In this document: positions 12,120-13,935 of the stretch, piece after piece
Position numbering within the stretch: the stretch's first letter is position 1
Layout: each line of letters starts with the position of its first letter
Assembly (NCBI GenBank): GCA_012524135.1
Contig: JAAYSE010000086.1
Coordinates: 1-53,469 of the forward strand
Direction of reading: 5' to 3'
DNA length: 53,469 nt
Source: Candidatus Epulonipiscium sp.
Lineage (GTDB): Bacteria > Bacillota > Clostridia > Lachnospirales > JAAYNZ01
Position numbers and translations under genes: made by a program
The notes under the pieces: generated by a model
Told to the model about the DNA's origin: nothing
The model's database searches: none
Seen by the model: the letters and a program-made list of their open reading frames with translations, nothing else

Positions 12120-13367
12120 TTGGCTATAATAAAACCTTTTGCTGCCTTTCGCCCAGTTTCTACTATTGTTTCACAAGTGGCCGCATTACCTTATGATGTA
12201 ATGGATCGGCAAGAGGCAAAAGAAATGGCAAAAAATAATATCCATTCGTTTTTACATGTGGATAAGGCTGAAATTGATTTACCAGATGATGTTCATCCTT
12301 ATGATGAACAAGTTTACCAAAAGGCAAGAGAAAATTTATATAAAATGATGGAAGAAGGTGTTTATCAACAGGATCAAACTCCTTCTTTATACTTATATCG
12401 GTTAACGATGGCAGGACGTGCTCAAATAGGTATTGTGGGTTGTCTTCCTATTGATGCCTATCTTCAGAACGATATTAAAAAACATGAATTGACAAGAGCA
12501 GACAAAGAACAAGATCGAATACGTCATGTTGATACCTGTAATGCTCATACGGGTCCTATATTTTTAACTTATCCTCAACAACATTCTCTTGATCAATTGA
12601 TTGAAGAATACGTAGAGAAAAATGATCCAGTTTATGATTTTACTTCTTCAGATCAAGTGCAACATGAAGTATGGCATATTTTTGATCCAAAGGTTATACA
12701 ATTAATTCAAAAAAACTTTCAAAATATACCTACTTTATATATTGCAGATGGGCATCATCGAGCTGCTTCAGCAGTAAAAGTAGGGCAACAAAGAAGAAAA
12801 GAAAATCCTAATTATACAGGTGAAGAAGAATTTAATTTTTTCTTAGGAGTACTTTTCCCTCATAATCAACTTCAAATTTTAGATTATAATCGAGTAGTGA
12901 AAGATTTAAATGGATGGACAAAAGAAGAATTCTTATTAGCAATACAATCTTCTTTTATTGTATCACCTTGGACTGGATGCGAACCTTATCGACCTACGAA
13001 ACCTCATATTTTTGGAATGTATTTAGATAATCAATGGTATGTATTAGAAGCAAAAGATACAATAATTAATTTTTCTGATCCAGTAGCTCGATTAGATGTT
13101 TCTATTTTGCAAAAGTATTTATTACATCCTATTTTAGGAATTCAAGATCCAAGAACAGATGAACGTATTGATTTTATTGGTGGTATTCGAGGTTTAAAAG
13201 AGTTAGAAAAACGAGTAAATAATGATATGATTGTGGCTTTTTCAATGTATCCAACAACAATTGAAGAATTAATGGAAGTTGCTGATCAAGATAAACTTAT
13301 GCCTCCAAAATCAACTTGGTTTGAGCCTAAACTGCGAAGTGGTATTTTTATTCATACGTTAGATTAA
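12120..13367 (+). CDS. DUF1015 family protein (SerK/ParB-like fold suspected)
   Basis: MAIIKPFAAFRPV..., RHVDTCNAHTGPIF, LYIADGHHRAASA; TTG start after AAGGAGG; directly downstream of serC-serA. Confidence 0.9.
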   Translation: MAIIKPFAAFRPVSTIVSQVAALPYDVMDRQEAKEMAKNNIHSFLHVDKAEIDLPDDVHPYDEQVYQKARENLYKMMEEGVYQQDQTPSLYLYRLTMAGRAQIGIVGCLPIDAYLQNDIKKHELTRADKEQDRIRHVDTCNAHTGPIFLTYPQQHSLDQLIEEYVEKNDPVYDFTSSDQVQHEVWHIFDPKVIQLIQKNFQNIPTLYIADGHHRAASAVKVGQQRRKENPNYTGEEEFNFFLGVLFPHNQLQILDYNRVVKDLNGWTKEEFLLAIQSSFIVSPWTGCEPYRPTKPHIFGMYLDNQWYVLEAKDTIINFSDPVARLDVSILQKYLLHPILGIQDPRTDERIDFIGGIRGLKELEKRVNNDMIVAFSMYPTTIEELMEVADQDKLMPPKSTWFEPKLRSGIFIHTLD

Positions 13368-13408
13368 AAATGAAGGGTATATGATAGTTATATAATATAA
13401 TTTATTTC

Positions 13409-13438
13409 GTATAAATTTAGAGATTGCCTCTCATACTA
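13409..13438 (+). promoter_or_regulatory. Candidate sigmaG (forespore) promoter of the 57-aa sORF
   Basis: GTATA-N18-CATACTA, a full match to the Bacillus sigmaG consensus gHATR-N18-CATxHTA. Confidence 0.65.
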
Positions 13439-13472
13439 ATATTGTAAAATATTTTTTGAAAGGGGCAATCTT

Positions 13473-13646
13473 ATGAGTATGAATAGATTTACTACAGGAA
13501 TGATTGTAGGAAGTATTGTAGGTGCTGTTGGCGTTATGATGAAAGATACAGATAAAAAAAGCAGAAGAAAAATGCTAAAGAGTAGTAAAAAAGCAATGAG
13601 AAAAGCCAGTGCTATTATGGATGATATTTTAACTATATATAAATAA
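13473..13646 (+). CDS. 57-aa YtxH-like small membrane protein
   Basis: MSMNRFTTGMIVGSIVGAVGVMMKDTDKKSRRKMLKSSKKAMRKASAIMDDILTIYK*; SD AAAGGGG; glycine-rich TM segment plus basic helix; below the length cutoff of the supplied ORF track. Confidence 0.8.
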   Translation: MSMNRFTTGMIVGSIVGAVGVMMKDTDKKSRRKMLKSSKKAMRKASAIMDDILTIYK

Positions 13647-13687
13647 AAAGATGGGATATCCCATCTTTTTATTTATATATAGTTAAA
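13628..13687. terminator. 60-bp perfect palindrome acting as terminator
   Basis: Every pair from 13628/13687 to 13657/13658 is complementary; includes the stop codon 13644-13646. Confidence 0.9.
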
Positions 13688-13708: not shown

Positions 13709-13737
13709 TTGACAAAGTATGTTTCCTTTCCTATAAT
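13709..13737 (+). promoter_or_regulatory. Consensus sigmaA promoter upstream of alaS
   Basis: Exact TTGACA-17-TATAAT. Confidence 0.85.
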
Positions 13738-13764
13738 TTTAATAATATAGAATAATGAAATATT

Positions 13765-13795
13765 CCCCTATCCAATTAGGGTTGGGGTTTCTTTA
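13765..13795 (+). terminator. Hairpin with T-rich tail in the alaS leader (possible attenuator)
   Basis: cccctatcc-aattag-ggttgggg followed by tttcttt, about 25 nt after the predicted TSS. Confidence 0.45.
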
Positions 13796-13935
13796 TGTTT
13801 GATAATATATTATAATGTAAAAAGAAAATATATAGAAGTATTAATTTGTTTATACTTTTATTATAAACGGTGTAAACAAAAGGTTTTAGATAAATTCAGA
13901 AAGAAAATAGTCAATTGTAGTCGAGGAGGACAAAA

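Follow-up and report, generated by a model that had tools for sequence, protein, structure and literature searches.

A sigmaG-type promoter whose spacer pairs with the Shine-Dalgarno sequence of its own small gene, a candidate case of read-through silencing of a forespore gene

In the window, the whole analysed stretch of 53,469 nucleotides, a 57-codon open reading frame (sORF) lies behind a sigmaG-type promoter whose -35/-10 spacer is complementary to the sORF's own Shine-Dalgarno (SD) sequence. A forespore gene that is silenced in read-through RNA is the best explanation of this arrangement, with a probability of about 0.8. The original prediction had proposed such silencing, and several results support it: the pairing covaries in a position-specific manner, it depends on the direction of the upstream gene, no terminator precedes the sORF, and the SD is predicted to be freer in the native RNA. 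The computations establish these two properties of the pairing together with the anatomy of the locus and its promoter class.

We infer the transcript ends, the read-through itself, the translational block and its benefit, as follows. The sORF would be a forespore (sigmaG) gene behind a co-directional housekeeping gene. RNA reading through from DUF1015 would hold both arms, place the SD in a 12-bp stem and hardly be translated. RNA made by sigmaG would start near 13445, as judged from the sequence; because the left arm lies in the -35/-10 spacer, this RNA would lack it and its SD would be free. The sORF would thus be locked to the forespore at translation, even if transcribed in growing cells. 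The most likely reason for such a lock is that making a small membrane-type protein in cells other than the forespore would do harm or waste resources.

Anatomy of the locus and the sORF family

Table 1. Features of the sORF locus and its flanks (window coordinates)
Feature	Position	Strand	Basis
DUF1015 gene, presumed read-through source	12120..13367	+	Pfam PF06245, E 5e-118
-35 element GTATA, sigmaG-type promoter	13409..13413	+	sequence; conserved 5' of homologues
Left arm (anti-SD), entirely within the -35/-10 spacer	13420..13431	+	12-bp duplex with 13461-13472, two G.U
-10 element CATACTA, spacer 18	13432..13438	+	sequence; class shared with spoVT and SASP genes
SD of the sORF, AAAGGGG	13459..13465	+	sequence
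Right arm, holds GGGG of the SD, extends to the start codon	13461..13472	+	fold, sequence
57-aa sORF, unnamed family	13473..13646	+	ATG 13473, 57 codons, stop 13644-13646
Intrinsic terminator directly 3' of the sORF	13643..13672	+	hairpin and T-run, -15.7 kcal/mol

The coordinates first proposed for GTATA-N18-CATACTA (13409-13438), both arms, the SD and the sORF start are all exact. The core arms, AGATTGCCTCT (13421-13431) and AGGGGCAATCT (13461-13471), form 11 pairs with one G.U; this is the predicted SD-burying stem, and a further G.U pair, G13420.U13472, lengthens it to twelve. The predicted location of the left arm inside the spacer is borne out by the sequence coordinates, which place 13420-13431 upstream of the -10 element and so 5' of the inferred native start. 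On the + strand of the window, RNATA-N17/19-CATNHTA is matched at the sORF promoter only.

The RNA spanning 13395-13500 has a folding energy of -26.5 kcal/mol, whereas dinucleotide shuffles average -14.5 +/- 2.8 (z -4.3). The promoter:SD duplex (-18.9 kcal/mol) is equalled by none of 7,621 other 30-nt stretches sampled in the 53-kb window, and 300 shuffles of the spacer likewise gave no equal. Genome-wide, seven GNATA-N18-CATNNTA sites are followed by an SD and an ORF, and strong pairing with the site's own SD occurs at the sORF site only. By prediction, the SD is freer in the native RNA lacking the left arm (0.67 unpaired) than in read-through RNA (0.23). A search of Rfam (E up to 1) for a known riboswitch, leader or thermometer RNA returned no match over the stem.

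From the DUF1015 stop codon to the sORF start there are 105 nt, and no terminator-like hairpin was found between that stop and the -35 element; the sORF thus has a co-directional upstream gene with no terminator between them. The terminator at 13643-13672 is the probable common end of DUF1015 read-through and sORF transcripts. Further downstream (13709-13800), the window carries a perfect sigma-A type promoter, TTGACA-N17-TATAAT, followed by a hairpin-like element, CCCCTATCCAATTAGGGTTGGGGTTTCTTT, and then alaS. A very similar element lies 5' of alaS in the same-genus relative (L002); Rfam gave no T-box match for it in the window, and it is possibly an alaS attenuator.

The sORF protein has a hydrophobic, Gly-rich N-terminal half and a basic C-terminal half, and homologues are present in 158 of the 392 genomes of the order. 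Neither the sORF nor its relatives gave a Pfam or NCBIfam match reaching the cut-off, and the YtxH-like and other matches seen all fell below it; against the YtxH-like family (PF12732) the sORF scores 14.3 bits, compared with a curated cut-off of 37.5, and a literature search on YtxH in the forespore yielded nothing useful. At the cut used, a sigmaG-type promoter precedes roughly half of the homologues gathered (64 loci among 133 unique sORFs), mostly as G[ACT]ATA-N17/18-[CA]ATA[CA]TA. The same promoter class is found at the SASP genes of these genomes and at spoVT of the sORF's own genome, a 1.95 Mb draft that includes the window and encodes sigG. SASP genes and spoVT are classical sigmaG targets. 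The GHATR-N17/18-CATNHTA promoter, in a genome that encodes sigG, is that expected of a sigmaG-regulon member, and the sigmaG assignment of the original prediction is supported by the sigG gene, by the class shared with spoVT and SASP genes and by its retention at about half of the homologues.

Pairing across relatives and the direction of the upstream gene

Covariation of the two arms in relatives had been suggested as a check; in the comparison, the pairing is position-specific and is kept while the arm sequences differ by lineage, as in AGATTGCCTCT/AGGGGCAATCT of the window, GACCTCCTTTTTT/AAAAAAGGAGGTC of L157 and AATATCCTTT/AAAGGGGTGTT of L064. A swap test compared each locus's own spacer:SD duplex with the duplexes formed with the SD regions of other loci, so that composition and SD motif stayed constant. 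The own duplexes are about 3 kcal/mol stronger on average, with z -4.9 and p 0.0005 (the lowest value that the test can give) at one locus per genus and p ~0.001 at one locus per family; at divergent loci the signal is gone (z +1.2). Scanning upstream, excess SD complementarity appears only in windows overlapping the -35/-10 spacer, peaking at z -7.6 from -26 to -3 relative to the -10 element, and windows entirely 5' of the -35 element range from z +1.5 to -2.2. In a two-dimensional map of 40 co-directional loci, likewise, spacer against SD scores z -5 to -7.4, and values elsewhere are at most ~3 in size. Taken over more than 100 relatives, these results point to a self-silencing stem that is real and kept by selection. 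In the same-genus relative, five changes leave all 10 core pairs intact, with one pair converted from A-U to G-C on both sides. By itself this pair of genomes is weak evidence, as it comprises two sequences only: the chance of retaining 10 pairs is 0.0006-0.04, or 0.02-0.12 with the SD fixed.

If the stem serves to silence read-through RNA, a strong stem is expected only behind a co-directional gene. Upstream gene orientation was called from the longest ORFs. With a strong stem defined as at most -12 kcal/mol, 20/40 co-directional and 1/18 divergent loci with a recognised promoter have one (Fisher p 8e-4; 7 families, 10 genera); the energy cut and the promoter-score cut were both set after inspection of the data. 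When all loci are included (77 co-directional, 34 divergent), the two groups differ in stem score at p 2e-6, and at the genus level at p 9e-4. DUF1015 lies upstream of many stem-type loci (tblastn), and other stem-type upstream genes, judged from sequence, are SerA, lytic transglycosylase, Lgt and TrpB; this diversity argues that direction matters rather than a particular neighbour. Against a strict rule, the other 20 of the 40 co-directional loci with a recognised promoter are without a strong stem. Strong pairing despite a divergent neighbour is seen at L235, the one divergent locus counted above, and at L246. Upstream terminators tend to go with weaker stems (p 0.06), and several loci have both; the idea that stems replace terminators was set aside, as it rests on this trend.

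Some loci depart in detail. Family f24 (L004, L007, L095) probably uses CAAACTA as its -10 element (GAATA-N18-CAAACTA); the pairing at L007 and L095 spans the start codon besides the SD side. Leaders of genus g41 (L018, L119, L123, L124), whose spacer stems are weaker, hold a conserved hairpin-like element, CTGCCGCAGACAG, between the -10 element and the sORF SD.

SASP genes served as a control and show no spacer:SD pairing (z +1.0). Several lack it although they are co-directional (first 23 loci covered), so the pairing is not general to sigmaG promoters; a rule for all sigmaG genes was rejected, as spoVT and most SASP genes, over the same 23 loci, have no stem. One SASP gene, L191 of G044, whose co-directional neighbour lies 64 nt upstream, shows strong spacer:SD pairing (-15.4 kcal/mol).

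As a positive control, sigG of the same genome and of 10 relatives was examined, with promoters assigned using AATSATT as the -10 element; their spacer:SD duplexes have energies of -11 to -22 kcal/mol. These genes (L210, L274-L290) resemble the sORF in carrying an SD-complementary stretch within the spacer of their promoter, which is of the GTATA-N17-AATSATT type, and differ from it in their sigmaF-like -10 element and in the upstream gene, which in this genome is sigE: sigG lies downstream of it. At L210, 5' of sigG in the sORF's own genome (G000:C215, near 25067), GTATA-aattaatatcctctggt-AATGATT pairs with GACTGGAGGG.

Alternative readings and known systems

The stem lies just 3' of the upstream stop codon, where a transcription terminator or a 3'-end stabiliser of the upstream mRNA might overlap the promoter and SD by chance, and in L116 and L120 a T-run does follow it. 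In the window and most relatives, however, the right arm is not followed by a T-run, the two-dimensional map shows the SD to be the conserved partner, and a separate terminator is also present at several loci, which makes this reading improbable. In the window itself termination was rejected, given the lack of a T-run after the right arm and the separate terminator after the sORF. Slightly less probable is a role for the pairing within the native 5' leader of a longer RNA that starts at a different promoter, where it would be a thermometer, a riboswitch or a target of an sRNA or protein. Such elements usually act by occluding the SD, but the arms vary in sequence between lineages, no Rfam family is matched, and the stem is lost behind divergent upstream genes although promoter and gene persist.

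We give the lowest probability of all to a by-product of composition, in which pyrimidine-rich sigmaG spacers and purine-rich SDs pair without selection. Some g86 and g17 spacers do consist of long pyrimidine stretches, and their shuffled versions pair almost equally well (L098, L102, L107). Own pairs nevertheless beat swapped SDs with composition and SD motif held, and neither SASP genes nor divergent sORF loci show the signal; a composition artefact was rejected on the swap tests and the SASP control.

Silencing of read-through RNA has precedents. With 12 bp over the GGGG, the stem of the sORF includes the SD, as is characteristic of read-through sequestration of a ribosome-binding site. The original prediction drew an analogy with phage T4 gene e, which is accurate: in T4 genes e, soc, 49 and I-TevI, the SD is hidden in a long early RNA, and the late promoter of gene e is located in the stretch that specifies the 5' strand, which leaves the late RNA free; for gene e the effect was shown experimentally to be about 100-fold (PMC3014915). 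The T4 system differs in concerning phage genes and late promoters, with no cell differentiation driven by sigma factors.

Closer is sigG (spoIIIG) of B. subtilis, where a hairpin at the ribosome-binding site has been proposed to block translation of spoIIGA-sigE read-through RNA and cannot form in RNA from PsigG (PMC5942855). There too a forespore gene lies behind a co-directional operon and the hairpin would be absent from own-promoter RNA. Unlike the sORF, which encodes a small membrane-type protein, sigG encodes a regulator, and its stem has 20+ bp; moreover, that proposal concerns one locus, while the evidence for the sORF is comparative and spans many lineages. Misexpressed sigG has been described as toxic (PMC5942855), and T4 lysozyme made too early could cause cell lysis (PMC3014915); by analogy, the sORF product may likewise be harmful out of place.

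Implications for forespore gene control

On sequence comparison, the sORF appears to represent a new gene family whose control is of a type already known, and the comparison adds evidence of selection; this support is broader than that described for such control in the literature searched. More speculatively, and at somewhat less than even odds, the spacer anti-SD could be an evolvable insulation device that emerged or was recast repeatedly within the order, present behind co-directional and absent behind divergent neighbours, and the sORF family could mark a protein confined to the forespore and damaging to growing cells.

Transcription that runs in from a neighbouring gene should cause leaky expression of developmental genes during growth, and a lock undone only by use of the correct promoter has so far been known from single examples. 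The unnamed, widely conserved sORF family offers more than 100 natural variants and, in neighbour orientation, a built-in control; it is therefore directly testable whether read-through selects for promoter-embedded anti-SD arms. The sORF itself is a candidate for a protein that has to be kept out of vegetative cells.
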